From NCBI GenBank assembly GCA_964019135.1, contig OZ025255.1:19693708-19757707 (forward strand): a DNA stretch of 64,000 bases. Direction: 5' to 3'. The notes beneath the pieces were generated by a model that searched no databases, was not told where the DNA came from, and saw nothing but the letters and a program-made list of their open reading frames with translations. How positions within the stretch are numbered: the stretch's first letter is position 1; each line of letters opens with the position of its first letter. The translations under genes were made by a program, and so were the position numbers. Below, one piece after another: positions 2,748-63,562 of the stretch. The DNA is from Arenicola marina (Eukaryota; Annelida; Polychaeta; Arenicolidae).

Positions 2748-4292
2748 TTAATTGTAGTTGGAATAATTGCTGTATTTCTCTAGATGTGTCTCCAGGGTAG
2801 CGTACAACACGTCGTACTGGTTCTGTAAAGATTGTGGTTATGAACAAATAATTTTCAGTTATATCCCCTTAGAGGCAATTTATATAAATCCATTGCTTGC
2901 GTGGACATGTTTGATTAAGTAGTCGACCTTTATAAACTAAATTAAAACAATGCTGTGAGACTTTGACAAATTGTTTTACCTTGGAGTTGATGAACTCGGG
3001 TCGGCTTTCTTTGGCCTGTCTGACCAGCTGGAAGATGTCCACCTCGCCCTCTGTGTTAGCCATCTCAAATATGTTACAGCTGACCACGTAGAGGCCGCTC
3101 AGGCTGGCGCCATTGCTGCAACGAGACGGATTGATGAACGGCGTCGGAGCTTGGTCTAACAAAATGATTTCATGACGCGAACGTAACATCGTCACACCTA
3201 TCATCAGCAGTCAGTTACAGTTTTCTTGAGGATCTGTAATTTGATCTATGTTTACGGTTATCCTACTATTATTATTTTATCGAATCAACAACGTGGATGA
3301 CACTTACAGACATGACACCACTACGGGTCGATCGCCACTGCTGCGTTGCCAAGTTTCAACATCCGAGTGTAGTGAGATGACGTCATCCATGGCCAGTTCG
3401 TCTCGCTTTTTGGTGCACAGCTTGAACACTTTTAGTTTAATGTCTTTGCTGTCGGGTTTCTAAAAATATAAGTTGTATTCCTTTTACTGTGCGCTCTCTT
3501 GCAATCGTACTGGCGGGCCTAGGCGCTATTTGACGCCACTCAGATTGCTGTTCTAGGCTGCAAGTTCTTGACTATTTCATATTATCGCATGTTCACTAGA
3601 ATTAATCAACTTGTTAGATGTCAAGCTCACCGGTGTGGGAACAGACACTTCGCTGACGTTTGCGTAGGTCGCTGCGCCTTCATTCTCTTCGCCAGCTTCT
3701 GCCATGATCAAATCGACGATTTGGTGACTTCCGCCTATGGTACTTCCGGTTTGGGTCACGTGACGGCCCGCCACAAGGAGCGGCGTGGATTTGTCGGGTA
3801 ACATCCGGGGCATCTCCTGTTTGAGATATGCAAAGTAATTACGCAGCATGAACTAAATTCAATTGAGTCACCAGATGATCTAATACGCAAGATACATTTG
3901 CGGATTCATATTTGCGAAAATCATCATGAATTATTCCCAGGAAAAGACCCCGCAAACCTTTTCATCCCCATCGTGCATCAGCAGGACTATGGAGCGGCAG
4001 TCGTTCTCAGACACCATGCGCCAGAAGTCGATGACGGTCGTCTCCAGAGGAATCTGGGTCACGTAGAAGGAATCGTGTTTTCTGTATCCCTGAAACAAGC
4101 ATTCGTTCTTATTTTCAACCGAACAAATTCAATAATTTGTAATGCTCTCTCGTTTGTCTTTTGGGCAATCTAGCCTCGTAGTATATCATCCATGGAACCG
4201 CCACCACGTAACTAACTCACATTAACCGTCACAGCGTTGATGTAGTCGTTCCGTCCGGTGAAGCGTTGTTGAAGATACAACCGACGTGTCAT
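2748..4292 (-). CDS. Gene 1 exons 18-23: second phosphatase domain D2, predicted inactive
   Basis: Six exons encode a divergent PTP fold: DYINAV, then [18 protein letters not shown], a long stretch with no WPD motif, the pseudo-signature VVVSCLNGASLSG, and the C-terminal helix [17 protein letters not shown] followed by TAA at 2,748-2,750. The cysteine at about residue 863 is present, but the histidine before it is serine and the catalytic arginine position is leucine. D2 domains of receptor phosphatases are often inactive and serve in stability or binding, so this is probably a pseudophosphatase domain. Exon 18 appears to use an AG acceptor directly before an in-frame ATG codon. Confidence 0.8.
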
Positions 4293-7200
4293 CTCTACAG
4301 GCAGAATAATACGAAATTGCATGGGGTTATATGAAATGACATGAAAATCAGTTAATTGTAAGGAAATAGAGTTAGGAGAATGTTGATTTCGTTAATCGCG
4401 CGCTAAGCACCAGTGGATGGATACTTGCATGGTTGTATTAGCATGTGTCTTACTTGGCAAGATTGCCTTGTCTCTGTTCTTGGCTGCGTTATGTTTGCTC
4501 AGTGCGTCATCTTGATCATACTCCGATACTTTCTATTCTTGTGGTTTGTATGATCTGCAGTAGAACACATATTGCACATATTATATATATATGCATTTAA
4601 TCCCTTTGGATACAGGGCATTCACCTAAAGCCATCTATTATTGTATACTATTTTGAGCAAATAATATATTAAAACATGCAGTTTGTTATTGATCTAAAAG
4701 TTTCCAGATTACTACTTACCTTAAATTGTCTATCGAGTGCGCTAGTTCCATCTGCTCCAGGCTTCACAATGTTTCCGTAAGTCTCGGTGAAGACATCGAT
4801 GGACATCAAAGTACTTCCGGTTGTGATGTACTCGGCCAACGCGTCGTGGATGAAGACATATTGTTTCTGGAAAAGATTGTGGATAATAATATTGTTTCTG
4901 AAACAGGTCGTGCACGGAATGACTTTCGTTTTGGATGAAGGCATTGTTTGTGAAACACATTGTGGATAAAGACATTAAGTTTCTTGGGGTATGATATACT
5001 GTTTGGCTAAGATGATATTAATGCCGCAAGATGTCAGAGATTGATGATTTTTGCTGCTGCAGAAAAACATGGGGAAGGTCACAAATTAAGACATTTTGCT
5101 TGTGGTGAGAAGTCAAGGATGAAATGCTTTAGCTTCTAGAGGAAGTCGTCGGTATGTAGATACATTGTTTCTGAGAGATCACTATGACAAAAGCCCCGAA
5201 GAGGCCCTTCTAATAAACATACAAATGCCACGTTACATAGAACTTACCAATGTCTGCACCATAGTTGTCCTCTGTGCTCTTAGTTTCTTGATGCAGTTGA
5301 ACACATCTATGACACCTTTGTCGTTTGCTTGGTGTAGTAATTGGTAAAGCGCTATCAATGTTCCAGTTCTGCCAACACCGGCGCTGCAAGTAACAACAAT
5401 ATCAGCGGTTATTTCGCAGTCTTATGTGGTACGACCCTTCATTATGACGTTACTTATAAGTGTGACATAAATTTTAATATTTGCTATTCGACCTCAACAA
5501 GATGAGAGTTACAAACTGATGCTTTAGTTGTATCCACCGTTGTCCTTGCTTCTCTAGTTATGAAAACCGAATTACAAGCAGTTAATGTCATATTACATGA
5601 TATAGTTTTTAATTTATATATCATGCAAGCTTCGTTACGGAAAAACTAAGCGGCACCGTAGATATGGCCTAATAACCATTGGAGTAGTTCTTACCTGCAA
5701 TGAACAACCGTGGGCTTGTTGGCTTTCATTTGCTTGCCGACCTGTCTCACAAAGTTGACCATGGAGGTGGCGTTGGACGGAACGCTTTTGTCTGGCCACG
5801 CCGTATACTGAAGGTGAAGGACCGTGCGACGCTCGCTACCCTGTGTTAGGCCAAAGGTCACAATAGTTACGCCCATCTCTGTGACCGCCTCATGCAAATA
5901 AGTGGTAAGAATAATTGGTGCTTTGAGCCATATTTGGCATCCATTCAATGAATATTATGGACTAAACTCCAGGGCTTCACGGTAAGTTTGTCGCTAGTCT
6001 GTCACAGAAGTATTGGCGTTTTGATTAGTGTACCAATCGAACAAAAATGATGGATTAATATCCAGGGCGTCAAAGTAAATTCATGGAGTGTCACTATAGC
6101 ATGGTAACTGCGATTGATTAATGCTAGTGCCATGTTGTTCCACTCGTAGGATACAACGGACCATAACAACCATGGGTCAAATTAAGCTCATTCAAACCCA
6201 TCCAGCGGTGCATCTACGGCTAAGGCGATTACTTGGCTTAGGACCTGTATGAGAGTGAACTGCCCCCTGACGATGTCCAGCCACTTGTCTTCCTTCACCG
6301 GCCTCACTCTGATGTCTCCGTATTCAATCTCCTCGTCCACGGGCCAGTAGAAGGCGCACTTTTCCTAGATATAGCATGCTTCAATACATTATCTACATTG
6401 ATGTTTCACAGTTTATGTATATAAATATTATTGTTCATGTCTTTCATACAAAACTTGTGTATGCCATTATTGCTTCAACCCAACGCATCAAAGTCGATCA
6501 AGCAGTGCTTGCTTTATTTTTCTAGCATAGAAGAAGGCTAGACAGAACACGATCATAACAAATGGACTCCCCGTTTACGGATATATCCTTAGAATAGATA
6601 AACATATTTTGCCTACCTTGCCTCCTTCATTTAGGTTGGTCACCATGACAATCAAGGGCACATCTCGTTCCCAGATCATTCTCCAAAAGTCGTTCACCGT
6701 TGTGTTTATTGGTCCTGTCAAATTACGGCACTAAATTCATTACAGATGGAGACGTTGTGTGCACTATTCTGATGCGGATTTTATCCAAGTTCATATAATG
6801 TAAAGTCAAAAGTTACATTTCTGTGTATGAAGTTACTACTTCAATAGCCTCTGTCAGGTATATCAGTGTCACTTGGTCTAACACAGACACCCGTTAGATC
6901 TCTATGAGAGTTGCCACACATTCCATCATGTAGGGGGTTGCGAGCTTACCGATGCAAGCGATGAACTCATCATTGTCCACATAGCCCTGCGTGATAAAAA
7001 CAACATGATATGAGTTAAATGGGAAGGAAACGCCTTTTGAATTCCTCATTTATGTGCATCATATCTTGTATATATACTTGAGAAATTTGCATCATATCTT
7101 TCCGAAATACCTCATTGAAATGTGGTATGTTTTGTTGACCATATTCATGTCCATCATATCTCGTATAAGAACATGTTATACCCTGGTATATGATCAATAT

Positions 7201-10200
7201 CATATCAAGACACATCATGTCAAGTATAAATGACGTTATCAATATGCACCATTTCCTGCATCAGTACAGTATTAACATGTCATGTCCGGTGTAAATACCC
7301 AACTATATGGTTCGTATCTTTTATGGATAAGCTTTCATTTTAATTATTGTACCACGTATCTATTGATGTTACACAGTGTAACCTGCAAAAAAGCCAGCGT
7401 CACTCACATTTATGAGTGAGGCGTTGATATAGTCGGTCAGGGGGTCGTCATCAAGTGTCTTCAGCTTCACTCTAGTCTCATCATCTGAAAGGAGATAAAC
7501 ACACATCTGAAAACAAAGATCAACACTTATCTCTAAAGACATTGTAGTTGGTAGCGCCAGCGATACTGTACAATGCAAAGCACGTGGTTTTTATCTGGTA
7601 CTTACACGGTAACATGTTTTTATACTTGTTTTTGGCAGCAAGTCCGTTGCGCTTGGCGGCCGCGCAGCTGTGATCGCTGGCATCGACGAGTGTCTGCAAC
7701 ACGAAAGGTTTCTCATGTATTATTGAAGCGTGGATTTGAATATATATATAACTAATATAACTAATATATGTATATATAGCATCTTTAACATTCTTTAAGT
7801 ATAATAAAGTGGCGGACCCCAGATGGAGAGCGGCACATGGGCACGTCCCCTCCCCCTCTTTCCCTGGAAAATAAGCGAAAAGGGATCGTGCGCTTCGATA
7901 GTATTTTAATAAACGATTTCCCCCCTTTCGTAAATTCCTGCATAACAGTAATATATATGTGTAGGATACCCAGCAACACAAATATGTCTATAAAGTATGT
8001 CACGATCATGAGAGCCTCGCTGCTCGGTTGTTCTTATCACTGTTAATATTTAATATTTACATCAAATTCGTGTTCGAAGTTCTTGTTTTGTTTCAAGTGG
8101 TTGACGTGGTCAACAAACATGTCGACCTTCACTTGAGAGGGATAGTTTTTGTACACGACTTCCACTTGGGCGGCATCAGAGGCGACCTCTGTGTCTCGGG
8201 CAGAACCCTGATCTGTCGGTTGCGGGACTTGAGTGTCCTGGTCTGTGTTCTTGGCGGGCTGGGTGACCTGTTCGGCTGATGTTCCTACGAGCAATGCGAC
8301 AGGTATTTACTGGAGGACCTGGATGAGAATTAACGATAATATATCTACTGTTCACTGGATAAGACTCCTTTATTGATCACGTACACTTCTGTATCCAGAT
8401 TGGCTTTAAAATTTATTGAATGTGTGATCAATGTACTTTTTGCATGGAAAAGTACGTAATAAATTGTAGAAAGTAAAAAATATACTTCACACTAACTTTT
8501 GTTACACACTGTGTCCTAAATAATGAAGAATTAGAGTTCATAAATATGTAGATAAAGATGTACGAACACAATTATTTTTTCCACTTTGGCCTGAGTAATT
8601 ACTTATACAGCTTGGTAATATATAGTAGAAAGACTCACCATATCTATGCTTCTGCACAAATGAAACTTGGCTTACCCAGCGTTTTGTCTTTTGGACCAAA
8701 ACCTGCCATTGCTATGTCGTTGATATACCTTGGCTTGGCCCGCCTTGAGATTAAAACATACGAATGAATCAATACAGGAACATAACGTACATTATACAGT
8801 TGACTGCAAATCATGTTCCACGATTTAAATATATATGGTAACATAATTGACACTTATCTTTCTTTTGGTTAATTTTCTTTCCTGTCGACCAACTTGAACA
8901 ATGCGTCTCTCCGAGCGATCGAGAGATGCCAGTTAGGTCGTGAGATGAATAGGTTCATCGTTCCAAACAATCATCAGTATAACTTGTCTTTCGCCCATCG
9001 TAGGCTTGGAACAGAACCTCGCGAACACTATCTGGGAAAACAATATACTGTGGAATGCAGTATATATACAGTTTATCAGCATATTCAACGGGACACAGTT
9101 TGACAGACCTGCGTCTGAGGACGACCAGGACGACCACGACAACCGCTGTAATGGCGGCCACGGCAGCGACACACACTCCGGCTATCAGACCGAGGCTGAG
9201 GCCGATTCCACCGCCACCATGCGCCCCGGCAGACATCCCAGTTGTCATATCTTGGAAAATACAGGGTAGCACAAGGCGTTGTAATATTAGTGTGTCTCTT
9301 GCAGCAAAGTCTGAAGCCAGGGGTAGGACACCATAATAAAATAATAACTGCTCATAGATCGTCTGTCGATTTCCGCCAGTCACCCTTATCAGAAGAAAAG
9401 TAGATTTCCTGTCCGCTAATGAACGGAAGATCAACCATTTTTTTTTTAATATACAATGATTGAATATTTTAGTATGTCAGTCCATATTAATGTGCTGCAT
9501 CAGCCGGAATGAAACTGTCTCACCTGTAACTACGCTTGATAGTGTTGTAGTCGCCGCTTGTTGGATGCACTCAAAACTTCCATCCTTGTTCCGACATTTG
9601 TCAGTGGGACGGCAGTTGTGGAGTTTTGGGTCTGCGCACTCGTCTATGTCTGTAATGTGTCGACATAGCTGATATTGAGACTGCAATCGAGTCCAAATTT
9701 AGTTGATGACCTTCCGAATAGTAAATGTTACACATAGGTATAAAGCGCGCAAGTTACGATGGTCTGTTCCCGAAAATATTGTTATATATTCTTATATTTC
9801 TCAAGGTTTTCATTGATGTATTTAATGAGTAAAGCAACTTTTGTAGTCTATAGGGCCGACATTGCTGTCAGTCGTGTGTTCTAGATGTTACATGCCTGTA
9901 CACGTGGTGTTGTCTGAGAGATATCCCTCCTGACATGAACAGCTGTAGCCACCCTGAGTGTTGGTACAAGTGTGATCACACCCGCCGTTGTCGGTGGCGC
10001 ATTCATTGATATCTACAACATGCAACACGGTCATTATAATATCATTATCATAGTTCAGTAAACTTCTATTCGCTGCGGTTATAGTTTTACATGTTATACA
10101 TGTTGGTCAGTCATCCATACCGGTATCGGTACGATAAAATCTCTCACAGTGCATACGAACAGTGACAAATGTCAGATACAGGGTCATATCTATACAATAA

Positions 10201-13200
10201 TAAATTAGTCATTTTCCTTAGCCATGTGTGTATGCCCTAATGTCGATCAGAATGTTTGATATCAATGATGTTGATGAAACAACGTACATTAACTATTATA
10301 AAGTAATGACAACCACAATATTTGATGAATGAAGTACCTGGATATTTATCAAATTCACGAAATATTAGCTGGGATTAAAAGTTTTAACTTTTTAACGTTC
10401 CCATGGCAACGGGTGAAACGCCCATTTAGGTCATTCACAATGTACATGTATAATTACTCAGATGGGAATTGTATGTCAGTGACAATGCATACTACCTCAT
10501 CCGGGAGTATAAATTTAGTCACAGTATGAAATGAGCGATGTACAAGTTTTACATTAATGGCACGCAGAAGGAACTTTAGGCATAAGCAGCAATGCGTCAT
10601 AACCTACCTGTGCATAACGTGCCAGTCTTGTCTTACCATTTCCGACACCTGACAGTTGTTACACGTCTGGTCATAGTGACCAGGTATGACCTACCCATAC
10701 AGCTGGCTCCAGTCTGGCTGTAGCCGTCTCGACAGGAGCAGGAGAAGCTGCCCGGAGAGTTGTTGCACATCTGGTCACAGTGACAAGGTATGACCTACCC
10801 ATACAGCTAGCTCCAGTCTGGCTGTAGCCGTCTCGACAGGAGCAGGAGAAGCTGCCCGGAGAGTTGTTGCACATCTGGTCACAGTGACAAGGTATGACCT
10901 ACCCATACAGCTAGCGCCAGTCTGGCTGTAGCCGTCTCGACAGGAGCAGGAGAAGCTGCCCGGAGAGTTGTTACACGTCGGGTCACAGTGACAAGGTATG
11001 ACCTACCCATACAGCTGGCTCCAGTCTGGCTGTAGCCGTCTCGACAGGAGCAGGAGAAGCTGCCGGGAGTGTTGTTACACGTCTGGTCACATCCGCCATT
11101 GTTAGTTAGGCATTCGTTTACATCTGAAATATGCACCCAATATTCGAGGTTAGCAAGTTTAAATTCAATTTCGCACCAGAAATAAATATTGAACAATGGT
11201 AGCTCTCGCATTACTTTTGTTTGTGTTATAGGCCGAGATCGGCTGGGGGTTATTTTGGAGTTATTTTACTTTAAAAACGTTTTGGCAATTATTGTCAAAT
11301 TGGCCTTAACACGGCGATCAATGAGAAAATGCTAGATTTTAAATCCATCTTAAAAAAGGGCTTACTGAAATCTAGCGTCACATTGCATACGCAAATATCA
11401 AAATACAGATACGATAGTGAATTAACTATTGCTCTGTAAGCTCGATTATAAATAACAAGGCTATAAATTAGGCCAACAATGCAGAATTATCTCACTTTGG
11501 CTTTTTGGCGAGTATTTGCAATGAATAGTTTGTGTATTTGCTTGTAATATGTAACATGCATGCATGTTTGGCGGGAAAATTATGAAATGAAAATGAGAAC
11601 AAATGGGGATTTGTTTCGGAAAAATTCGGCCACGGTAGCTACCCACTCTCTACCTTAAGCTTATACTGGAACATGACGACGGGAGGTGGTGGGGGGGGGG
11701 GGGGGGAGGGGAGGGGGGGGGGCATCCACACTAATTAAATCAAATTGAATATATGACTGTGAAATGTCGTGCCAAATTATTGTGTAGCCTTATTGAAGGT
11801 GCACAATCGTTAGTAAAATATTATTTTAATATAGACAGTCCGCTTTTTTAACCCCTGTATCGAGGCCGATATTAAATGATACATGATATCCCAAATCCCT
11901 AGTCCATATTATCCCATGGCAATCCATATCGAACCATGTCACGTCAAACACATGAATAAAGACGCACAACATGCATGCCAGTGATGACAGTATTATTATT
12001 ACATGACAATGACCAGACCTTGAAGATACGTAAAAAATGTGCGACCGATATGATGGGTATATTAGCGTCTGTATGTACCTTCAGCTATTGGAGTCTTTAT
12101 GTGAAGTAAGGCGCAGAGGCATATTATCAGTGTTGACCTACCCTGATACACACTGACGTATGAGTTGGGCCTCTTCTGCCCTCCGCATTGAAGACCACCG
12201 CCACACGTTCTGCCACAGTTTGCAGCACCAAAGCTCTCGCCAGGAGTATTTAAACAGTAACAATCGGCTTGTGTGTGCTGTCGACGTACGCGCTTGAAGA
12301 GAAAGCATCAACATAAGTCAGATTCAAATCGTCATGCAATGCGTTGGAACTGAAACAATAAACCGCACCCTCCCTCGAATTTCACTTCCAGACGTTTCGA
12401 TCCGATAAAAGTATATCTGCGTTGATACTTAACTTCATATATGCATACACAACGCAACACAGAGGAGAACCAACCAGTGTAGATGGATGGTGGAACATGC
12501 TGAATGTTGGCAATGTAGGTGCGTCATTTAAAGAGGTGAACAGACAGCGTAGTGGTCGCTGTTTGGCTGCTATATTTATGTTATGACAGTAGCAGCTGCA
12601 TCCCCACATATAATAGCAGAGTGACAGCGAACACACACATAAGATTCACTTCACCCGACGAAGGAGGGGGGGGGGGGCATTGAGCTGGGGGGTGGGGACC
12701 CCACCCAAATCGCTATGACGAATGGCGATAAATAGTGAATGGGTCTTCGCGTTGAACAAGGAATTGTACGGATAACGATCCCCAAAAATGGCCAACAGCT
12801 GATCGCGAATCTCGAAGAATTCCTGGATGCCAATGGCGGAGATCGTAAAAGGTATTCCCTCCCCTCACATTGGGCACAGACCCTGAGTCCGCCGTAGCCG
12901 TATGCCGGGTCTTGCTCGCCACAGAACGCGAGACACCATTGGACGGTGACGTCACCCTGCCTCTTTCTGTCAGAAGGACCTCCCAGTTCATGGCTCGAGC
13001 ACTGAATATATATGTATCCTGCGGGAAGGAATCATCATTATGAACCGCCAAGGGGTGCGTGTGTGTGTGTGTGTGGAGGCGGGGAATGGGGGGGGGGCGG
13101 GGGGCATTTTTCAAGTGGTGGCCGGGTTCAGCCGATGTTAATATAAATGTCAACATTATGACATGCTAACATCAGATAATGTCAGATAGATTCCAATGAT

Positions 13201-13975: not shown

Positions 13976-13984
13976 GACGTCACC

Positions 13985-14470: not shown

Positions 14471-14949
14471 ACATCCTTGTAAGGAGTGATGATATAAAAT
14501 GTTACTTTTATATGAAATGCTATTCATAGCCTTATGCAGACCGCATGAGTATATTAATCCACGAGATATATATGTCCGGCAGTACGTTGCTCTTGGGGTA
14601 GATATTGTTGATTTGATATAATATCAATATGTCTACGCCTTGAATCCACGAGAGATGTGTCCAGCTCACTACGATAAGTACTTTGCTGTTGGGTTATATG
14701 TTATAAAACGCGTTATTGTGTGTGTATAGAACACATCGTGTGGTATATGCTTGTTATTGATGCTTGCAAGGTAAACTATGCGCGTTTTGATCCTGATTGA
14801 CTTGAAAATGGGACATGAACATCTACATTATGGCCTCATGTTTTGCTGAGGGGAGGCGAGGGGGTGTCTTTTTTCAGCTCTGATGTGACGTCCAGCATAT
14901 ATTCTATTCCGTTATTACTGCGTCCTTGTCAATATTACTGATGCAGAGG

Positions 14950-16724: not shown

Positions 16725-16811
16725 ATGCCAAAATGTGGGTGGATTCGTTCGAAGTGTGAGGTCGATGGGCGGCGAGTTGCTTACTCTTGGGTATATTACA
16801 CATAGGACCAT

Positions 16812-18348: not shown

Positions 18349-18671
18349 CTATTCCACCTTCTCGTACACTCCCTGCGCCGCCTCCGAGTTCGTGTATATC
18401 TTGATGTGTTCGTATTGTGAGTCAGACACCTCGGGGTTTGTGGGTCTGTCTTCCCGGTAGACGGGTGCCGGACTGGCAGGGACGACTCTCTCAGAACCCG
18501 GATGAGGGTGGGACGCAGTTGCTGTGTTGTTGGTGTCATTCGTGCCCGCACGGCGGCGCCACAGCATGACGATGACGACGGCCATTGCAATGACAACAGC
18601 CAGAAGAATGCCGAGCAGAGCGTACATCCAAACAGGCGGCGTGGTAGAAGATCGGCAAACGCCCTCGATTT
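18349..18671 (-). CDS. Gene 2 last exon: membrane helix and tyrosine tail
   Basis: Encodes [20 protein letters not shown], the rest of a hydrophobic helix, [11 protein letters not shown], a Pro/Ser-rich stretch and the end [17 protein letters not shown] plus VYEKVE. The three tyrosines are YEHI, YTNS and YEKV; only YTN keeps the pYxN form. The end [11 protein letters not shown] resembles the gene 1 juxtamembrane sequence [12 protein letters not shown], so the tail may correspond to the segment just before D1. Confidence 0.85.
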
Positions 18672-28686: not shown

Positions 28687-28694
28687 GACGTCAC

Positions 28695-29240
28695 CGGGGG
28701 TCACCACACCGTGTATGCTGGCTGCTGATCTCTCCTCCTCCCACCGGTCATATGTTGGTAACCACAGTGAAAGACGCACTAAATAATGACGGTGCCTGGG
28801 GGTTCTTCTGAATACCGTCTTGGAGAGTCTACTCTACTTTCTGACTGTCTGAGACAGCTGCACGTCATAGACAAGTCCTCGCCTAGGTCAGTTGGTCCTT
28901 TATAACACCCATGACATCCATGAAATGCGGACAGATATTTGCTACAGTTCTATCAAATCTTGCTCGTCTCTACAACTACACTGTATGCACGACACTAGCG
29001 CACTGTTGACTTATGTAATGTCAACAGCGCTCTGTTCACTTCCTGAATCATGATGAGTCGTACACCTCTCGGCCTACCCCGCCAGTGTCAAGCGACAAGC
29101 CGCTAGCACAGATCACGCATGAGAGATCGCGCCGCTCGGAGGGTAAAGTTCACCATGAACGTCGACCAGACACCACGTCGAGCGTCAAGAGTAGTTTTAT
29201 CGTCAGTGATGCAACGGTTACTTTTAGCCGTATGCGGACA
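28695..29240 (-). promoter_or_regulatory. Conserved 5' flank of gene 2
   Basis: Closest to the gene 1 flank: both share CATGAGAGATCGCGCCGCTC, GGAGGGTAAAGTTCA and AGAGTAGTTTT. Conservation continues weakly to about 29,340. No promoter motif can be placed with confidence apart from TGACGTCA at the start codon. Confidence 0.5.
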
Positions 29241-31337: not shown

Positions 31338-31678
31338 CTATTGCACGTTCTCATACACTCCCTGCGCCGCCTCCCAATTGGTGTAGATCTGAATGTTGTC
31401 ATATTGTGGGTCGGCCGGTGCGGCACACGGGTCTGTGGGTCTCACTTCCCACGAGACGACTGCTGGACTAGCAGGGACGGCTCTCTCAGAATCCGGATGA
31501 GGATCCAGAGGGTGGGATGTAGTTGCTGCGTTGTTGGTGTCATTCGTGCCCACACGGCGGCGCCACAGCATGAGAATGACAACACCTATAGCGATGACAA
31601 CAGCAACGAGAAGGCCTAGTGCGGCGTACAGCCAAACAGGCGGCACGGTAGAAGATGAGGAAGTAGACCCCAGGACTT
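31338..31678 (-). CDS. Gene 3 last exon: membrane helix and tyrosine tail
   Basis: Encodes a Ser-rich stalk, [20 protein letters not shown], further hydrophobic residues, [11 protein letters not shown], then a Pro-rich region and [17 protein letters not shown] plus VYENVQ and a stop. All three tyrosines have asparagine at +2, the pattern preferred by GRB2-type SH2 domains. Upstream of the acceptor is a long TA run. Confidence 0.86.
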
Positions 31679-31704: not shown

Positions 31705-31744
<40 letters not shown>

Positions 31745-55700: not shown

Positions 55701-58700
55701 CGTGATGTCTGTCACAATGTTTCACAATTTGTTGATGCAGGGAGTATCAACTCTAACGTATATCGAGGCATTAGGGCACTTTTATAAATGTTACAGTATA
55801 ATAAGTATATATAATACTATTACTACTAATAATAATGACAACCCTAACATTGTGGTGACCTAACTGGATATCCCCTTGGCTACTAAATGCAACTAAGTAA
55901 ACTTATAATGTGTTAATGAAATACATCGAGACAAGTCAAATGAATTGTGATGACATTAAGCACCATTTCATCCATTGAAATTTGTTAGATTCACTGTATC
56001 ATTCGTATGTCTTTGATGTGTCATTACCTACCCGTGCACAAAGGACCAGCCTGACTGTAGCCTTCCAAACACTGACAGGAGAAGCTGCCCAGGGAGTTGA
56101 CACACGTCTGGGGACAGCCACCATTGTTGGTAAGGCACTCGTTCACATCTGAAATGTGCACCCAATATGCGAGCTTATTAATAAACTACTTGGTTCGAAA
56201 TTTTTAATTAAACCGAATGGCACAGTTAATAAATTATTTTGATACAGATGCGCTAAGAGGCAACATAACATAGTTCATGGTATTTCTTTACAAGCTCGAG
56301 GCCTTTGAATCGTATAGGCATCTGGTACTGAAAAATTATGTGGCTCAGAACAATGTTTGTATTTTTTGAAAGAAAACTCGAGCAAAAATAAGCACTATTA
56401 TCAACAGATTATTAGACATGAAAATGTATAAATCAGTGTGACATAATGCCCTGTTCACACGATGCAATATCTCGTAAAGTTTATTGCAACAAATCTACTT
56501 TTCGACCAGAAGCGGGCGTTCCCAAAATGACCAGAGGTGGTTGTGGAGTAGCTACCTTTAAGATGATGATTACTGTTCAAACATTCCCACCAAAGATAGA
56601 TGACAGTGATATTATTAGGATTCTATTACAAAGACAATACATCCTCGTCCCACATATGTACGAAATAGTACATCGCGCGATCGGCATCAATGTATCTTTA
56701 AAAATATATACATTTATATTCAGCTAGCTGATCATGTACACAAAATGAACTTCAGATGCATATTGGTGGTCGTGACTTACCTCGATACACACTGACGTAA
56801 TACTGCCCTCCACACTGAAGACCCCCGCCCCTGCCACACGTTCTGTTACAGTATGCATCGTCGTGGGAAGTTGATTCAAACAGTAACAACGGGCAAAGCT
56901 GGTGAGAGGGCCGATATCAAGCTGTAACACAAAAACATCGTTTAAATTAACAACACGTTGTGGGGCAAAATACATAAATGAAGCACTTTATGCCCAAAAT
57001 GCATGGCACTGTTTGAGTCGTAGTCCAATGGAGCTGCGTTAGTAGAGAGTAGGTGAACAGATATCGGTTATACGCAGCGGCCTTCTAACCTTATACAACC
57101 GTTCCTCAAATCTTTGCAACGCTTCATACGAACCATAACGTTCACCCATCGTAGATATAAATGAACTGAGACACTGTACACTGCACGCTATGGGGATGGA
57201 CTGACATTTGAGGCTGACCCAGGGACAATTGGTGTGTTTCGGTGTGGACGACACTGATGGTGGTCTGACATTGAAGACATGCTCTGAGTCCACTGTATTG
57301 ACATGGTTTACACTGCACTAATGATGGACTGGCACTGGTTTTGGTTGGTTATTCAGGACACTTTACCCACTTGGTCATATCGCGTCAATGGGAGAAGGAA
57401 GGGAGAGCGGAGTCATGTCCCCGGGGGTAAATCCTCTACTCTTTGCATAGAAGGACATGGGATCTTTATCTTGCGACCACACAGACATGGCAGCGGGGCT
57501 CGAACCATCGATCCACGTGCAGTTAGGCTCTCAGGTGACCAGAGCACTCAATGCCAGCGCTCTGGCCACTTGAGCTACCGGGCCAGCCTCTGTAGGGATA
57601 TGGTTTAGATTACACTAATGATGGACTAACATTGAAAACTGACCATGAGTCCACTGTAGGGATATGGTTTAGACTACACTGACGATGGACTGACATTGGA
57701 AACTGACCATAAGTCCAGTGTAAGAATATGGTTTAGACTACACTGATGATGGACTGACATTGAAAGCTGACCATGAGTCCAGAGTAGGGATATGGTTTAA
57801 ATTAAACTGATGATGCAATGACATTGGAAACTGACCCATAGTGCACAGTAGGTGTATGCCCCATGTTGTTGTCGACAGAACTCGAGACACCCCTCGACCG
57901 TGACGGCAGTGGTCAGCTGAATGGTTTTGGAAGGCCACCCGTAAGTAAATCCGGTGCACCGAAAGAAATCATATTCTGTGGGCATGAATTCTAAGATAAA
58001 AAGCAATTTTATTTCAAACATGGCAATAAACAAATACAGTGGAATTAACTGACAAAAAACGCATTGGCATTGGTTGAGGAGACTTCCATTAAGACGTGTC
58101 AGTCGCGAGCATGGGAGCCGCCTAGAAAAACAACAACAAAATAAAGAAAAAACACACAATAGATCGAAAAGAACAAACAAGTACGAATGAGAAAACAAAA
58201 TAGACAGAGCATGTCACTACAAAAAGTTAATGACTAAGAACATATATGGACTGTAGATAAGTAACCAAATATATAATGGACCGTTAGTTTAACATTATTT
58301 TTTACATGAGTAGCAGTGAGGGCTGTTTCATTCATAGGCGTACGAATTGATGATCGTATTTTTTATGTAGTTTTATGTAGTTTATGTAGGTCTTTTAATT
58401 GTAGCTGTTTTAGCTCGTTGAATAGTGGTTCTGTGTGTGAAGTATATTAATTATTTGAAACATTCCTATTAACTTTTTTTTGGAGCTTGCTTAATCTATA
58501 TATTTAGTAACCCCATTCAAGTATACAATAATAAAAATGTGGTAGAATTAAAGAGTTGTAGATAATGACAAAGAATTGAGGCGGAAGTACGTTTCTCAAC
58601 TTATAAAGTATGCCGGTAACCTTTGTTTTACTTATGTTAAAACACAGTTCATTGACTTTAAGCCAGTCGTTTATTTTTGCTAGTTCTCGTTCGGTGTTTA

Positions 58701-61700
58701 GTTCTCCAATATTAGGTTATCTGTTTCTAAAGTGAAAAGTGTCGTGCCATCTGCATATTTTATAGCTTTGCAAAGTTCACTTGTATATTTTCGATATCGT
58801 TTACATATATTATAAAACAATTAAATCGACCAGATTCAACATTCTCCATGCGTACATATTGCTTGCGATTGCGACGGTAGTTTTGTGGAAGTGTTAATGA
58901 GTTGCCACAAAACTCCTTGATGTTTTCATTTTGCAGAAATTATATTATGATTAAGAGTGTCGAAGGCTGTGGACATGTCAAGACAGATATTTATGGACAT
59001 TTTCCCTTCATCTAGTTTTTGAATGGTTGTGTCTACCAGTTCTAGTGTAGCTAACTCTGTATAATGCTGTTTTTTTGAATCCATGTTGCCCGGGGTTAAA
59101 CAATTTTTTTATTTGGAAATGTTCATGTAATTGCTTAAATATTGCTTTTTAAATACCTTCGAGATAGATGGTAGAATCGAGATAGGTCGATAATTATCTA
59201 TGTTAGCCTCGTAACCTTTCTTCAAGATTGGAATAACCTTCGCCAGTTTAAGCTTCTCGGGGAATATTTCTTGGGGTTATTGATTGATTAATGATGAAGG
59301 TGATAGTTTCCCTTATTTCATCTTTACGATTTTAAGTAGTTTAACTGATAATTCATCGTTCCCAGAGCTGGATTTGGGTTTTAGCTCATCGATAATTTGT
59401 AACGTCTCATGCTTATCTATTGGCCGAAAATTCACTTCAGTTTTACATGGGAAGTGTTTTAGATAGTCATTAAACATTACGTTATTCGGTTTGCATTTGT
59501 TCACATAAATTTGTTGCAACATTCACGAAAAAGCTATTGAAGCTATTAGCTATGACAGGTTTGTCTGTTATAGGGATACCATCCATGTCTATGGAAACTT
59601 TTCTTTATGTCTTGTGTTTTGTAAGATATTATTTATCTCAATCCAAGTATTTTTTCTGTCATTTTAATATTGGATAAAACGGCCGTTGTAATGGGTTTGT
59701 TTTGCCAACTGTATGTTTTGCTTCAGGATACTATTATATGTTTTCAAATTAGTTTTATGCATTTCGGATTGCCGTGTGGCGAAGCGTCGCGTGATGACGA
59801 TCGCCACATTTACCAGGTTGTGTTTTCGTAGGATATATGCAATTATGTGCCATAATTTCTTTCGTTGCGCAGCAACGATAGGAGTAATTATCTCCGACTC
59901 GCAGGGAGCCTCTCCGAAGTACTTTTCCCCTGCCGGGAACCCCAGATCTTCCCATCTCCCCATCGGGAGCCCCGGAATTTTGGTCACGTGCGCGATGGGT
60001 TACACGGCGTCACGTGACCCACGCGCACTGGTTTTCCATCCGCCATTTTTCTCCTTCACCAAGAAAGAACAAAATTTCCACCTCCTCCCCACCACCTTCC
60101 TTGCGAGCGCTCCTTATGAGGACGGCCTCACTACACCCAACTCAATGAGGAGGGCATCACTACACCCAACTCAATGAGGAGGGCATCACTACACCCAACT
60201 CAATGAGGAGGGCATCACTACACCCAACTCAATGAGGAGGGCATCACTACACCCAACTCAATGAGGAGGGCATCACTACACCCAACTCAATGAGGAGGGC
60301 ATCACTACACCCAACTCAATGAGGAGGGCATCACTACACCCAACTCAATGAGGAGGGCATCACTACACCCAACTCAATGAGGAGGGCATCACTACACCCA
60401 ACTCAATGAGGAGGGCATCACTACACCCAACTCAATGAGGAGGGCATCACTACACCCAACTCAATGAGGAGGGCATCACTACACCCAACTCAATGAGGAG
60501 GGCATCACTACACCCAACTCAATGAGGAGGGCATCACTACACCCAACTCAATGAGGAGGGCATCACTACACCCAACTCAATGAGGAGGGCATCACTACAC
60601 CCAACTCAATGAGGAGGGCATCACTACACCCAACTCAATGAGGAGGGCATCACTACACCCAACTCAATGAGGAGGGCATCACTACACCCAACTCAATGAG
60701 GAGGGCATCACTACACCCAACTCAATGAGGAGGGCATCACTACACCCAACTCAATGAGGAGGGCATCACTACACCCAACTCAATGAGGAGGGCATCACTA
60801 CACCCAACTCAATGAGGAGGGCATCACTACACCCAACTCAATGAGGAGGGCATCACTACACCCAACTCAATGAGGAGGGCATCACTACACCCAACTCAAT
60901 GAGGAGGGCATCACTACACCCAACTCAATGAGGAGGGCATCACTACACCCAACTCAATGAGGAGGGCATCACTACACCCAACTCAATGAGGAGGGCATCA
61001 CTACACCCAACTCAATGAGGAGGGCATCACTACACCCAACTCAATGAGGAGGGCATCACTACACCCAACTCAATGAGGAGGGCGTCACTACACCCAACTC
61101 AATGAGGAGGGCATCACTACACCCAACTCAATGAGGAGGGCATCACTACACCCAACTCAATGAGGAGGGCATCACTACACCCAACTCAATGAGGAGGGCG
61201 TCACTACACCCAACTCAATGAGGAGGGCATCACTACACCCAACTCAATGAGGAGGGCATCACTACACCCAACTCAATGAGGAGGGCATCACTACACCCAA
61301 CTCAATGAGGAGGGCATCACTACACCCAACTCAATGAGGAGGGCGTCACTACACCCAACTCAATGAGGAGGGCATCACTACACCCAACTCAATGAGGAGG
61401 GCGTCACTACACCCAACTCAATGAGGAGGGCATCACTACACCCAACTCAATGAGGAGGGCATCACTACACCCAACTCAATGAGGAGGGCATCACTACACC
61501 CAACTCAATGAGGAGGGCATCACTACACCCAACTCAATGAGGAGGGCATCACTACACCCAACTCAATGAGGAGGGCGTCACTACACCCAACTCAATGAGG
61601 AGGGCATCACTACACCCAACTCAATGAGGAGGGCATCACTACACCCAACTCAATGAGGAGGGCATCACTACACCCAACTCAATGAGGAGGGCATCACTAC

Positions 61701-63562
61701 ACCCAACTCAATGAGGAGGGCATCACTACACCCAACTCAATGAGGAGGGCATCACTACACCCAACTCCACTCAAGCCTCGTACAGAGGCTCATGTTAATC
61801 ACAACCCTCATTCATTACTGAGTAGGTCAGCTTTGGTTGTCTGCCCAGGTCACCCTAATAGTCAGACAAAGATCACACCCATGCCGGGGCTAGCCCGGCA
61901 CGGTGAATAGGGGGGGAGGTCAGCGTTGGTTGCTTTTCCAATCATTAAGAATTCTGAACCGTGTAACTGTGGGAAGGTCAGCTTTGGTTGCCTTCCCAAA
62001 CATGGGGAATTCTGAACTGCGTTACTGTGGGAAGATCAGCTTTGGTTGCCTTCCCAATGATTAGGAATTCTGAACTGTGTAACTGTGGGAAAGTCAGCCT
62101 TGGTTGCCTTCCCAATCATTAGGAATTCTGAACTGTGTAACTGTGGGAAGATCAGCTTTGGTTGCCTTCCCAATCAGTGGGGACGGGACAAGTCCTACCA
62201 TTAGTCGTTGTATATACGTTGGTTAATAAAACAACAAAAGGAGGCTGTGATAGGCCTGTCGGACGTCCTGCATGGTTTGGACCGGAACCAGGGGCCCATA
62301 GGCAGTCGATCCTTTGTGGGTGATAACTTCACCTCTCGTCGACTGGAGTAGGCCAAGCTGTTCCGCCTCTCTCTCGGTGAGACAGATTCAGGATGTCATG
62401 CGCGTCGCGGTGATTCAGGTAAGCGATCGGTTTGCTTCTCATTGTTCATGATGAGGCTGTCATTCGTGATTCTGATTTGAATCAGTTGTGGGGAGGCGCG
62501 GTCACTGGCCGCCTGGGCCCTTTCACTATACTCCCTTCACTGTTCAAGGATTTCGATCGGGTATTAATTGCAGGGTGATCTTAAAGGTATCTTTGCATCG
62601 AGGTAATTTATTCTTGGAGAAGTCCAGCAAACTAATTATGAATCGACCCTTATCATGTGGCGGGGTGGGGGTCCCATGGCGGTATTAGAGGTTTCAGCCG
62701 ACGACTCCCAGTAGATAATGTTAATATGTTCATTTACGGCTGAGTTAAGTGTTTTGTCGTCATACAAAGCCTCCGAACCACACTAATTCCGTCTGTATTA
62801 GACATGCATTTATTTCATTCTGCAACATTTAATGGGGCATCGTTTGAGAGAAGGGGTTTGCCTCCCAGGGTGTGGGGCTGCACCTCTCTGATTACCACTC
62901 CCTACAGGTACACATACTCCTGGACCCTTTCCCAGTACTCAATCTACCATCCTCTCCGTATTCCTAAGTGTTCTGGCCCCCCCCATGGCTCGGTGAGAGA
63001 TGGCAGACTTAACCATGGCATTCCCCTAGCAGTAGGGTGAGATCCGCTAGACTTACCCATCGTATCCGCTACATTGTGTGTCGGCCGTACCAGGAGCCAC
63101 AACACTATGCCAACCGAAGGAGCTCGTTCCTCATATAACCTCTGCCCACGTAACCTCTCACCGAATGGTTTTAGAGGGTTGTTTTGTTCGAATATGCTTA
63201 AACAGCGGTGTATTTGATGGCAAACTGCGAATCTATGCTCGGTTAGATTCATTTTAATGTTCGCGTATGAAGGATAATTATGATGGTTTAATTTGACGCG
63301 GGACAGAGGGACTATGGCGTAACGTAACGCCCTCTGCCGGGAGATCGGAGCTACAGTACAAGGACGGGGACGACCCTATACCCAACCCCCGACATGACGT
63401 CACAGGGAATCACCACACCCATCTTTCCACCGCACCCCCCCCCCTCCCAACGTGTAGGCAAGTGCCGCCTAACTTACCCGACGCATCCGCTCCACTGTGT
63501 GTCAGCTGTACCAAGAGCCACAGAACAAGGACGGGGAAAACCCGGTTCCCAGCCACCGCCAT
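31338..63562 (-). CDS. Gene 3: WSC-EGF single-pass receptor without phosphatase domain
   Basis: Third paralogue, about 350 residues. Exons (minus): 63,478-63,562 (signal peptide 1b); 57,836-57,975 and 56,781-56,921 (WSC); 56,032-56,148, 44,987-45,103 and 43,389-43,505 (three EGF); 31,338-31,678 (stalk, helix, tail). Exon phases agree, except that the second WSC exon is 141 bp where 3n+1 is needed: the frame shifts once between CYCLNQLPT and [10 protein letters not shown], so the gene is broken or the assembly has an indel. Its introns hold nearly all the repeats of the right half of the window. The tail has YDN, YTN and YEN, three pYxN motifs. A role as a phosphatase-free partner of gene 1 is inferred. 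Confidence 0.75.
31707..31741. repeat. TA dinucleotide microsatellite
   Basis: An uninterrupted alternating TA run of about 35 bp, next to the acceptor of the gene 3 membrane exon. Confidence 0.9.
31966..42906. repeat. 11-kb minisatellite of a 21-bp unit with higher-order repeats
   Basis: About 520 tandem copies of a 21-bp unit built on CACCACGGTATGGACTG plus a variable four bases (GGAG, GGGA, GGGG or ACAG types). It lies wholly in a gene 3 intron. Landmark variants recur as sets: GACAATTCCACGG at about 33,608, 37,433 and 40,481; GTCAGAAAGCACAAG at about 32,616, 34,335, 38,160 and 41,208. Spacings are 3,825 and 3,048 bp; the difference, 777 bp, is 37 units. Because 21 is divisible by three and the unit has no stop in any frame, all six frames are open for kilobases. 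The longest, 1,207 codons on the minus strand, is a by-product. Confidence 0.97.
42935..43030. repeat. Duplicated intron segment next to the satellite
   Basis: TTGAAAGAAAAG, ATTTTCAACAGATTATCA and TATAAATCAGTGTGACAT match 56,370-56,445 in order (ATTATCAACAGATTATTAG and the same TATAAATCAGTGTGACAT). It is a third remnant of the EGF-exon-plus-intron duplication in gene 3. Confidence 0.6.
43250..43320. repeat. Detached degenerate copies of the 21-bp unit
   Basis: About three diverged copies (GGGAGCACCAAAGTAAGG, GGGAACACCGTGGTATGG, GGGGGCACCATGGTATG) lie about 340 bp beyond the array end, separated by unrelated sequence. They may be an older edge of the satellite. Confidence 0.75.
43389..43505 (-). 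CDS. Gene 3 exon 6: calcium-binding-type EGF module with GC donor
   Basis: Encodes [16 protein letters not shown] then [16 protein letters not shown], with six cysteines, 117 bp, phase 1-1. The donor is GCACGT. Next exon 3' is the membrane exon, more than 11.7 kb away across the satellite. Confidence 0.85.
43577..44197. mobile_element. 620-bp foldback or MITE-like inverted repeat
   Basis: The two arms (about 230-250 bp each) read as reverse complements: left ATACACATGGTTC, CTTCGATGAAT, GTCGATTATGACAACGA and ACTTGGACC pair with right GACCGTGTGTAT, ATTCATCGAAG, TCGTCATAATCGAC and GGTCCAAGT. Identity is high but not perfect. The GC-rich centre is about 130 bp. No frame for a transposase. Target duplication is not clear. 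Confidence 0.82.
44377..44575. repeat. 39-40-bp tandem repeat, five copies
   Basis: Unit contains CTAAATAATTATTACGTG, ATTATTCATACGTGG and AGCTA. Copies differ at several sites. It lies in the intron between two gene 3 EGF exons. Confidence 0.85.
44600..44960. repeat. Duplicated intron segment of gene 3
   Basis: GAGTTAGAATGCGACGACAT, TATACGAATACTAAA and ATCGAGGCATTA match 55,640-55,990 in order, and both copies lead into an EGF exon. So exon and flanking intron were duplicated together. Includes an ATA/ATT-rich run near 44,775-44,840. Confidence 0.7.
44987..45103 (-). CDS. Gene 3 exon 5: EGF module
   Basis: Encodes [16 protein letters not shown] then [19 protein letters not shown], six cysteines, 117 bp, phase 1-1, donor GTAGGT. 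Very similar to the next EGF exon upstream (56,032-56,148), consistent with recent duplication. Confidence 0.88.
45110..46019. other. Gene 3 intron, nothing recognised
   Basis: A 92-codon frame on the minus strand (45,098-45,376) overlaps the EGF exon edge and has no recognisable domain. No other signal. Confidence 0.4.
46020..46228 (-). mobile_element. Candidate LINE 3' end left of the transposon
   Basis: On the minus strand this AT-rich stretch would directly follow the LINE coding end at 53,988 if the 7.75-kb transposon were removed. It has GAGGAAATAAATTACAT and an ATT-rich run, as in LINE 3' UTRs. Suggestive only; no second copy in the window proves it. Confidence 0.35.
46231..46494. repeat. 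Left terminal inverted repeat of the transposon
   Basis: Matches the reverse complement of 53,735-53,983. The outer 200 bp are closely similar, the inner 50 bp diverged (TTGCGCGGCCGCG versus TTGCGCGGCGGAG). Confidence 0.88.
46580..46639. repeat. Perfect 60-bp palindrome with 9-bp flanking direct repeats
   Basis: Two 29-bp perfect arms, starting TAGCCCTGAAACATGCC, meet around a 2-base centre. The direct repeat GGTACAGAG flanks it at 46,571-46,579 and 46,640-46,648. It lies 30 bp before the transposase ATG. It could be a minimal foldback insertion or a hairpin regulating the gene; a 9-bp target is typical of Mutator-like elements. Confidence 0.88.
46669..52527 (+). CDS. DDE transposase with C-terminal PHD finger, eight exons
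   Basis: Catalyses cut-and-paste movement of the element. Exons: 46,669-46,837; 47,645-47,846; 48,405-48,629; 49,729-49,791; 50,018-50,226; 51,071-51,383; 51,723-52,004; 52,392-52,527. Phases agree and give 532 residues. N-terminal helix-turn-helix-like region includes [18 protein letters not shown] and [16 protein letters not shown]. The DDE catalytic core has [11 protein letters not shown] (first Asp), [25 protein letters not shown] (second Asp) and [11 protein letters not shown] (Glu). An acidic linker leads to a C4HC3 PHD finger: CVEC, CDQC, HEQC and CELC, split across exons 7 and 8. The 63-bp exon 4 was found from the missing family motif. AATAAA at 52,636-52,641 may be its poly(A) signal. 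No stop or frameshift is seen. Confidence 0.88.
48140..48240 (-). mobile_element. LINE 3' tail fragment in the transposase intron
   Basis: On the minus strand, GTACCATGGGCGTTGTGCC followed by ACTTGAATAAACTATTATTATC matches the 3' end of the LINE at 23.2-23.3 kb (TACCATGGGCGTTGCGCC). It is a very short 3' copy inserted in intron 2 of the transposase. Confidence 0.7.
52642..53734. other. Non-coding right part of the transposon
   Basis: AT-rich sequence between the transposase poly(A) signal and the right terminal repeat, with C and G runs near 53,370 and 53,100. No gene recognised. Confidence 0.5.
53735..53983. repeat. Right terminal inverted repeat of the transposon
   Basis: Reverse complement of the left terminal repeat, ending CTTTTGACTTTGACTT before TA. 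About ten differences in the outer 200 bp. Confidence 0.88.
53988..55350 (-). mobile_element. 5'-truncated non-LTR retrotransposon (LINE-2 of this window)
   Basis: A 382-codon frame (53,988-55,136) encodes the RT thumb and C-terminal part: [34 protein letters not shown] and a Cys/His cluster [19 protein letters not shown]. Just upstream the RT active-site region appears as [18 protein letters not shown], with at least one break before the long frame. It is related to the LINE at 20.6-23.3 kb. The stop is 4 bp from the transposon's TA, so the transposon sits at or just past the end of this ORF. Confidence 0.85.
55640..55990. repeat. Duplicated intron segment of gene 3 (partner of 44,600-44,960)
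   Basis: GAGTTAGAATGCGAGGACAT, TATACGAATACTAAAT and TATCGAGGCATTAG match the other copy in order, before the homologous EGF exon. Confidence 0.7.
56032..56148 (-). CDS. Gene 3 exon 4: EGF module
   Basis: Encodes [16 protein letters not shown] then [19 protein letters not shown], six cysteines, 117 bp, phase 1-1, donor GTAGGT. Confidence 0.88.
56781..56921 (-). CDS. Gene 3 exon 3: C half of the WSC domain, frame broken once
   Basis: The 5' part reads [19 protein letters not shown] and the 3' part reads [18 protein letters not shown] then YVSVYR in another frame. Both parts are clear WSC sequence, and the splice sites match genes 1 and 2. The 141-bp length does not fit the phase; one base appears lost near 56,840-56,850. 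Either gene 3 is a recent pseudogene or the assembly has an error. Confidence 0.75.
57045..57250 (-). pseudogene. Possible decayed copy of a WSC N-half exon
   Basis: A minus-strand frame contains [22 protein letters not shown], whose spacing resembles [20 protein letters not shown] of the real exon. The adjacent sequence CCCTGGGTCAGCC also resembles the exon 2 donor region. The similarity is weak and no C-half partner is present. Confidence 0.3.
57255..57835. repeat. Degenerate ~60-bp tandem repeat derived from a WSC exon edge
   Basis: Words like GATGGACTGACATTG, AACTGACCATGAGTCCA and GGGATATGGTTTAGA recur about every 60 bp. The block runs into the donor of gene 3 exon 2, which shares ACATTGGAAACTGACCCATA, so the unit includes the exon edge. 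A SINE interrupts it. Confidence 0.7.
57336..57592 (-). mobile_element. tRNA-derived SINE, second copy
   Basis: On the minus strand the head has A box TAGCTCAAGTGG and B box GGTTCGAGCCC, and the body has TTACCCCCGGGGACATG and GTCCTGAATAACCAACCA. It matches the copy at 13.6 kb along its length. It sits inside the 60-bp repeat of the gene 3 intron. Confidence 0.85.
57836..57975 (-). CDS. Gene 3 exon 2: N half of the WSC domain
   Basis: Encodes [18 protein letters not shown], then [19 protein letters not shown] and CALW, ending in phase 0 at GTCAGT exactly as in gene 2. Frame intact. Confidence 0.83.
58200..59790 (-). mobile_element. Broken non-LTR retrotransposon (LINE-3 of this window)
   Basis: In order on the minus strand: the pre-RT region with [11 protein letters not shown] and [16 protein letters not shown], then [20 protein letters not shown] (start of RT), [36 protein letters not shown], and the C-terminal [19 protein letters not shown] and HTEPLFNEL. 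Many stops and frameshifts interrupt it, and the central RT block is missing. It looks like a CR1/L2/Jockey-like LINE, different from the other two. It lies in the first intron of gene 3. Confidence 0.83.
59791..60114. other. Intron sequence, nothing recognised
   Basis: Moderately GC-rich stretch with two CACGTG palindromes (59,980-60,020). The only frame is short and lacks a recognisable domain. Confidence 0.4.
60117..61767. repeat. 29-bp minisatellite, about 57 nearly identical copies
   Basis: Unit of 29 bp containing CACTACACCCAACTCAATG and AGGAGGGCAT. Almost every copy is identical; the main variant, GGGCGTC for GGGCATC, appears five times near 61,083, 61,199, 61,344, 61,402 and 61,576, all in the right half. 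Such uniformity means very recent expansion or strong homogenisation. There are no spacers, so it is not a CRISPR array. Confidence 0.97.
61918..62185. repeat. 58-bp tandem repeat, about 4.5 copies
   Basis: Unit contains GTCAGCTTTGGTTGCCTTCCC, split here as GTCAGCTTTGG and TTGCCTTCCC, plus GGAATTCTGAACTGTGTAAC. GGGAAG and CTTCCC in each copy can pair as a hairpin. A diverged start lies near 61,825. It lies just right of the 29-bp array. Confidence 0.88.
62190..63040. other. Gene 3 first intron near exon 1, nothing clear
   Basis: No domain is recognised. A stretch near 62,985-63,030 (GCTCGGTGAGAGATGGCAGAC) resembles the intron side of the exon 1 donor and may be the stub of a third exon 1 copy. 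Confidence 0.4.
63057..63395 (-). pseudogene. Gene 3 exon 1a split by an insertion
   Basis: The start half (ATG at 63,395, TGACGTCA overlapping it) and donor half (GTAAGT at 63,051-63,056) of the signal-peptide exon are separated by about 240 bp at 63,108-63,346. GGAGCCACA left and GGAGCTACA right may be the diverged target duplication. The inserted DNA has no recognised family. Exon 1a of gene 3 is therefore probably unusable. Confidence 0.72.
63478..63562 (-). CDS. Gene 3 first exon 1b (signal peptide)
   Basis: ATG at 63,562 opens [20 protein letters not shown], then THSGADASG, donor GTAAGT, 85 bp, phase 1. It is the only intact first exon of gene 3. Its link to the WSC exons 5.5 kb away rests on homology with genes 1 and 2. 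Confidence 0.75.

Follow-up and report, generated by a model that had tools for sequence, protein, structure and literature searches.

A family of about 60 clustered receptor genes was found on one chromosome of the annelid Arenicola marina (OZ025255.1, hereafter C8), and we consider it probable, at roughly 60%, that these sequences represent a paired-receptor family with a phosphatase as one of its arms. The mitochondrial contig is in keeping with an annelid host, as its genes, identified by eye, follow the annelid order ND3-ND2-COX1-COX2-ATP8-COX3 and AGA fits serine. The stretch of DNA analysed (the window) comprised 64,000 nucleotides (C8:19693708-19757707), and it was compared with a genome of 867 Mb, for which the match counts given below are lower bounds. 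A paired-receptor system had been suggested in a preliminary description of the window, and the architecture found agrees with it, as the ectodomains are homologous and encoded in clusters, the cytoplasmic endings are of two exclusive and separately conserved kinds, and related ectodomains are common to both of them.

Three genes were located in the window, all of them on the minus strand and named A, B and C in their 5′ to 3′ order, the array being limited by the start codon of gene A at 63562 and the stop codon of gene C at 2748. Gene A spanned positions 63562-31338, gene B 28686-18349 and gene C 13975-2748 (signal-peptide exon to stop). As the preliminary description had proposed (gene C being its gene 1), a signal peptide, a split WSC-like domain, EGF exons, the intron phases and the upstream DNA were shared by the three genes of the same direction, and the exon map and the Pfam searches placed phosphatase exons, with the domains D1 and D2, in gene C only. 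The three genes do not stand as an isolated cluster, since A, B and C are members of the family of about 60 genes. In gene C, the signal peptide ended in phase 1, the two exons of the WSC-like domain ran from phase 1 to 0 and from 0 to 1, the EGF exons ran from 1 to 1 and the transmembrane exon was entered in phase 1. The corresponding junctions of genes A and B fitted these phases, and entry in phase 1 was also seen for the tail exon in A, B and three neighbouring genes. One junction of the gene C model showed a mismatch, as the transmembrane exon ended in phase 2, whereas phase 1 was required by the exon recognised after it (8284-8061). Moreover, a GC-type donor was present in one EGF exon each of genes A and C. 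Among the WSC-like, tail and P-loop exon matches of the clusters, only those of the window's own genes lay on the minus strand, so the window looks like an inverted stretch of its cluster.

Table 1. Positions in the window of the exons and domains assigned to genes A, B and C.
Gene	Feature	Positions	Strand	Remarks
A	Signal-peptide exon	63482-63562	-	
A	WSC-like exon 1, diverged type	57836-57973	-	
A	WSC-like exon 2, frame disturbed relative to sister genes	56782-56895	-	
A	Three EGF exons (56149-56030, 45104-44985, 43506-43387)	43387-56149	-	
A	Transmembrane and tyrosine-motif tail exon	31338-31646	-	Entered in phase 1
B	Upstream/first-exon DNA common to other cluster genes	28389-29218	-	At least 55 matches, all on C8
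B	Two signal-peptide exon copies (28686-28606, 28519-28439)	28439-28686	-	
B	WSC-like exon pair (28037-27903, 27779-27627)	27627-28037	-	Exon map, Pfam score
B	Three EGF exons (25379-25260, 23980-23861, 23636-23517)	23517-25379	-	
B	Fourth EGF exon, diverged	18910-19029	-	
B	Transmembrane and tyrosine-motif tail exon	18349-18639	-	Entered in phase 1
C	Signal-peptide exon, copy 1	13894-13975	-	TGACGTC precedes start codon; ends in phase 1
C	Signal-peptide exon, copy 2	13483-13563	-	GC-type donor
C	WSC-like domain exon 1	12882-13018	-	Exon map, Pfam score
C	WSC-like domain exon 2	12142-12292	-	Exon map, Pfam score
C	EGF exon 1	11007-11123	-	Followed by three partial 104-bp tandem copies, 10693-10987
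C	EGF exons 2 (10012-9896, GC-type donor) and 3 (9649-9524)	9524-10012	-	Phase 1-1
C	Phosphatase-type transmembrane exon	9109-9250	-	Entered in phase 1; in the 250-kb map only in phosphatase genes
C	Juxtamembrane region and D1	4756-8284	-	Nine exons; catalytic motif and Q loop intact
C	D2	2748-4286	-	CSNGASL, no catalytic Arg; partial model; stop codon 2750-2748

Gene C was classified as an R-PTP on the basis of a signal peptide, a transmembrane segment, a D1 domain with WPD, HCxxGxxRT and Q loop, and an additional D2 domain. The reading frame of D1 was open over the first eight joined exons, the ninth exon being read separately, and D2 was pieced together by eye in an incomplete form that leaves out approximately 3.9-3.5 kb. 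The Pfam model Y_phosphatase scored 254.9 bits for D1 and 112 bits for the D2 pieces, and the solved structure closest to D1 was that of receptor phosphatase alpha (6uzt_A, E 5.3e−116). Judging from these motifs D1 looks active, and D2 should be inactive because CSNGASL stands in place of CX5R. With regard to repeats, 104-bp tandem copies (4.2 copies, 95% matches) of the back part of the EGF exon were observed in gene C at 10654-11091, this part being single-copy in the sister genes at 19.68 and 19.79 Mb.

Genes A and B had been described as phosphatase-free, which was right, but a conserved tyrosine-motif tail of their own had been overlooked. Each of them ends in a single exon, which encodes both the transmembrane segment and a tail carrying a conserved tyrosine module (the T ending, as opposed to the phosphatase or P ending of gene C), the last residues of the tail being similar in both. 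The tail exon of gene A had 45 matches in the genome, including two partial ones; every match was on C8 and uninterrupted by stop codons. When a 37-residue C-terminal piece of a sister tail was used as query at E≤10, 44 matches were obtained, again all on C8, and no T tail was found away from this chromosome. The tails present three spaced tyrosines in the motifs QY[E/D]xI, YTN and VYExV. Among 25 full tails, QY[ED]xI was found in 25, [VI]YE.. in 24, YTN in 22 and a strict ITIM ([ILVS]xYxx[ILV]) in 19, compared with frequencies of 0.000, 0.000, 0.010 and 0.080, respectively, in shuffled tails; the ITIM consensus, which gene B follows and gene A does not, failed in 6 of the 25. We take QYExI to resemble the core of an ITIM or YxxI motif, and YTN to be a Grb2-type site. 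Taken as a set, YxxI, YTN and YExV are compatible with roles of the ITIM, Grb2 or ITAM kind, and the tail may inhibit or activate. A charged transmembrane residue, which characterises the activating arm of classical mammalian paired receptors, was absent from all 25 aligned T segments and from the P-type segment of gene C. No solved structure matched the last 24 tail residues of gene A. In the 12.7-Mb cluster, three consecutive tail exons (C8:12704665, 12706989 and 12709313) were observed after one WSC-like exon, these being possible alternative tails of one gene.

Some members of the family look damaged. The WSC-like exon 2 of gene A was out of frame in comparison with the sister genes at 19772258 and 19820123, and only an alternative acceptor located further in keeps the frame open, at the cost of the CYC motif; gene A may therefore be damaged or a variant. 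In the T gene at 19.77-19.78 Mb, a stop was found in the EGF exon at 19780999, together with no first WSC-like or signal exon. Furthermore, the P gene at C8:19935920 (L082) matched only from residue 12 because the start of its P-loop exon is out of frame (at CSAGVG), and this gene may be a pseudophosphatase or a pseudogene. Two tandem repeats were also observed along gene A. The larger one, an 11-kb satellite of 521 copies of a 21-bp unit (31964-42911), lies between the last EGF exon found and the tail exon and has a strong GC and AT skew, its long open frames on both strands looking like repeat artefacts. The other one is a 29-bp minisatellite between the signal and WSC-like exons (60116-61767), with 57 copies and 99% matches, which appears to be very young or homogenised.

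The assignment of the first ectodomain module to WSC was upheld as far as the cysteine pattern is concerned, which fits, but the score stayed below the Pfam cut-off and membership is not secured. In particular, the WSC model (PF01822) gave 16.8 bits for gene C and 13.5 bits for gene B, with a cut-off of 27.8, and in the whole genome it recognised only 6 places, none of them within the window, which probably reflects the divergence of the domain and the intron that splits it. An alignment of the WSC-like domain with WSC sequences of the same genome (hhalign) had a probability of 20.7% and an E of 0.0011, with a shared cysteine pattern. For the EGF modules, EGF_CA (PF07645) reached 87 bits over the three EGF exons of gene B, above the curated cut-off.

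The similarity among the genes extended to their upstream DNA. The 830-bp stretch upstream of gene B had at least 55 matches (40 of 52 candidates scored), and a dispersed repeat was ruled out since all 55 matches listed were on C8 and in the same gene clusters. Regarding the signal-peptide exons, TGACGTC was observed ahead of the ATG in all 14 of those with a start codon in C8:19.60-19.85 Mb, two partial matches being excluded. The ATG sits inside a perfect TGACGTCA palindrome, including the exons at 13894-13975, 28606-28686 and 63482-63562, and 38 occurrences of this palindrome were counted in 250 kb, compared with a mean of 3.55 in 20 base shuffles. This palindrome, which we presume to be a CRE/ATF-type site, possibly serves as a shared regulatory switch at the start codons. 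Moreover, signal-peptide exons appeared as tandem pairs in gene B (28439-28686), gene C (13483-13975) and several neighbours, in which they are possible alternative first exons.

The size of the family was estimated from exon matches. The WSC-like exon 1 of gene B was found in 53 places, all on C8, and the same exon of gene A used as query added two further places, gene A itself and 19849616, for a total of 55. For the P-loop exon, the 18 best of at least 146 matches were on C8 (66-100% identity, with 150 of 170 candidates scored), 17 of which appeared in clusters and one was isolated at 23.74 Mb. The remaining 128 of the 146 matches listed were distributed over C7, C2, C1, C17 and others, with identities of at most 62%. 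Many of these off-C8 matches were clustered, and one C7 gene that was inspected (C7:23311000-23330999; L096, L097) showed the same design as on C8, namely EGF, a GAHGGG transmembrane segment and a phosphatase. The clusters on C8 occupied 12.66-12.85, 17.07-17.87, 19.61-20.00 and 24.26-24.47 Mb, and both the tail and the phosphatase endings were present in all four of them.

Variable degrees of constraint were observed along the genes. Considering the usable pairs, the P-loop exon (16 of 18 rows) had a pN/pS of 0.20, the complete tail exon one of 0.57 and the WSC-like exon 1 (31 rows) one of 0.66, and their dN/dS, calculated from pairs with dS between 0.05 and 1, was 0.13 (83 pairs), 0.50 (293 pairs) and 0.62 (318 pairs), respectively. 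Within the tail exon, pN/pS was lowest in the tyrosine module (0.31), followed by the transmembrane segment (0.44) and the linker (0.85). The most variable part was the half of the WSC-like exon ahead of VTVQWC, with a pN/pS of 0.77 over all pairs; the value of 1.24 obtained from 138 close pairs is biased, as these pairs were chosen for low pS. The preliminary description had recommended comparing the ectodomains for positive selection, and none was demonstrated by pN/pS in the WSC-like exon.

The grouping of ectodomains followed the cluster much more closely than the tail type. A tree was built from 31 of the 55 first WSC-like exons (20 tail genes and 11 phosphatase genes, about 46 codons), and its support was modest, with 11 of the 28 inner branches open. 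On this tree, the cluster changed 4 times, the minimum being 3 and the mean after shuffling 16.6 (0 of 200 shuffles gave so low a number), and the tail type changed 7 times, with shuffled means of 9.2-9.4 (as low in 38 of 500 and 28 of 500). A slight sorting by tail persists, and it is weak. Given that both endings appear in every cluster, genes of different tails have probably exchanged or converted their ectodomains, a process that is usual in paired receptor families. The WSC-like exon 1 was only 40-50% identical among A, B and C, and closer relatives with the other tail were found outside the window. The closest to gene C were other phosphatase genes (91 and 89%) and, with the other tail, the gene at C8:19611662 (89%), and the closest to gene B was the phosphatase gene at C8:19958659 (83%); together with the pair L062_T/L063_P, likeness across tail types was found in at least three places. 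The proposal that A and B would compete or pair with C in particular thus found no support in this form, and the partners of B and C, if matched ectodomains matter, would lie outside the window.

These data also bear on other explanations of the clusters. One of them is that each cluster works as one complex locus, in which the ectodomain exons of T genes would also be spliced to a downstream phosphatase set in the manner of clustered protocadherins. Such a splice would keep the frame, since the introns ahead of the two types of transmembrane exon are in phase 1, and the exon matches of the clusters are all on the same strand except for the window's own genes. However, in gene direction, an ending appeared after the WSC-like exon 1 and before the next WSC-like exon in 53 of 53 cases over the four clusters, the best of 10,000 shuffles of the order within clusters reaching 38, and with an ending of their own T and P genes look self-contained. 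The 250-kb exon map points in the same direction, as tail exons appeared only in T genes, and P-type transmembrane and phosphatase exons only in three P genes, each with its own signal and WSC-like exons. Two WSC-like exons seemingly preceded both kinds of ending, and the map gave front exons to each of the three tails concerned: a second WSC-like exon and EGF exons for that at 19783169 (with no first WSC-like or signal exon found), a signal exon, a partial first WSC-like exon and a second one for that at 19833117, and for that at 19889852 a signal exon and a first WSC-like exon. A single complex locus is thus highly improbable. The preliminary description had named two outcomes that would count against its reading, namely splicing of its genes 2 and 3 into phosphatase exons and the three genes being one, and both are unlikely on the genomic evidence of this map. 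Hardly any credit is left either to a plain expansion of receptor phosphatases, in which truncation or decay would have turned A and B into decoys or pseudogenes, a reading that is largely refuted. Decay would be consistent with the disturbed frame of WSC-like exon 2 in gene A and the internal stop in the EGF exon of the T gene at 19.77-19.78 Mb, but the tail has an exon to itself, which includes a transmembrane segment of its own, is constrained and was free of stops within the match in 45 places, and phosphatase exon matches were absent from the T genes over the 250 kb. For both reasons, the reading of A and B as decayed phosphatase genes was rejected.

It is also conceivable, and in our view rather doubtful, that T and P genes form two independent subfamilies of common ancestry, which are homogenised by gene conversion within the clusters and work separately, for example T genes as adhesion or endocytic receptors and P genes in tissue patterning or gamete recognition, as receptor phosphatases of the ordinary kind. 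Concerted evolution alone could explain the grouping by cluster, and QYExI and VYExV also fit the Yxx-hydrophobic sorting signal. In addition, the abundance of P-loop matches off C8 (128 of the 146 listed), among them one C7 gene of the same design, would suit this reading, as would the finding of no T tail off C8. Opposite to this, genes of different tail type have similar ectodomains in at least three places, as expected if matched recognition matters, and a single sorting signal would not account for three conserved, spaced tyrosines.

Under the preferred reading of a paired-receptor family, each gene encodes a type I membrane protein with a signal peptide, one fast-diverging WSC-like domain and several EGF domains, continued through a phase-1 intron into one of two endings. 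The P ending provides a transmembrane exon followed by an active-looking D1 and an inactive D2, and the T ending consists of one exon, in which the transmembrane segment is followed by a short tail bearing three tyrosine motifs. A Src-type kinase would phosphorylate the T receptors, whose phosphorylated tails would recruit SH2 proteins, and P receptors of matching ectodomain would meet the same ligand or the T receptors and strip the phosphates, so that the response would be set by the ratio of both arms, as in paired immune or allorecognition receptors. That both arms recognise the same ligands, and that a non-self or other cell would be read as the balance between substrate and phosphatase receptors, is put forward tentatively as an enzyme-substrate version of a paired system, and an immune or allorecognition role is a guess by analogy of architecture. 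If true, the logic of paired receptors would have been invented independently in an annelid, with fewer intermediates, using WSC-like and EGF ectodomains and a phosphatase as one arm, and both sides of the kinase-phosphatase balance would be contained in one diversifying gene family. The family is a concrete, testable candidate for annelid recognition receptors (graft rejection and pathogen recognition being guesses), and a natural test of whether the kinase-phosphatase balance is what evolution retains of recognition.

Vertebrate immunity makes use of paired receptors, and so does allorecognition in tunicates and cnidarians, where the ectodomains are of the Ig type. The mammalian KIR, LILR, SIRP and Ly49 families consist of tandem genes with near-identical ectodomains, kept alike by conversion, and two kinds of tail, one arm activating by means of a charged transmembrane residue and an adaptor, and the other inhibiting through ITIMs that recruit SHP phosphatases. 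In contrast, charged transmembrane residues are found in neither arm of the C8 family, and one of its arms has tandem phosphatase domains of its own. These domains, D1 and D2, are shared by gene C with PTPRA, PTPRE, LAR and CD45, and an inactive D2 is usual in receptor phosphatases; gene C differs from these classical members in its WSC-like and EGF ectodomain and in the existence of a matched phosphatase-free subfamily. In the literature, searched through the titles and abstract openings of the top matches, with subscription papers and preprints outside the scope, no WSC-EGF-phosphatase family and no phosphatase-bearing paired receptors were found. Among invertebrates, Alr of Hydractinia is a gene complex with diverging Ig-type ectodomains, which is not known to include phosphatase members. 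It resembles the C8 family in being an invertebrate complex with ITIM/ITAM-like tails and diverging ectodomains, and differs in their Ig type. The ITIM/ITAM motifs of Alr are mentioned in a paper on Botryllus schlosseri (PMC12065747), whose fester/FcoR (FF/FcoR) system is the nearest published one found. According to that paper, these are clustered receptors with diverse ectodomains on ITIM, hemITAM and YxxI/L/V tails, and kinase-phosphatase competition has been proposed as their output (PMC12065747). Both systems are clustered invertebrate receptors coupling a variety of ectodomains to tyrosine-motif tails, with Ig and sushi ectodomains in fester/FcoR and WSC-like and EGF ectodomains in the C8 family (PMC12065747). 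Furthermore, the receptor phosphatases homologous to CD45 are described as separate, co-expressed signalling proteins in Botryllus (PMC12065747), whereas in the C8 family the phosphatase is the tail of one arm.
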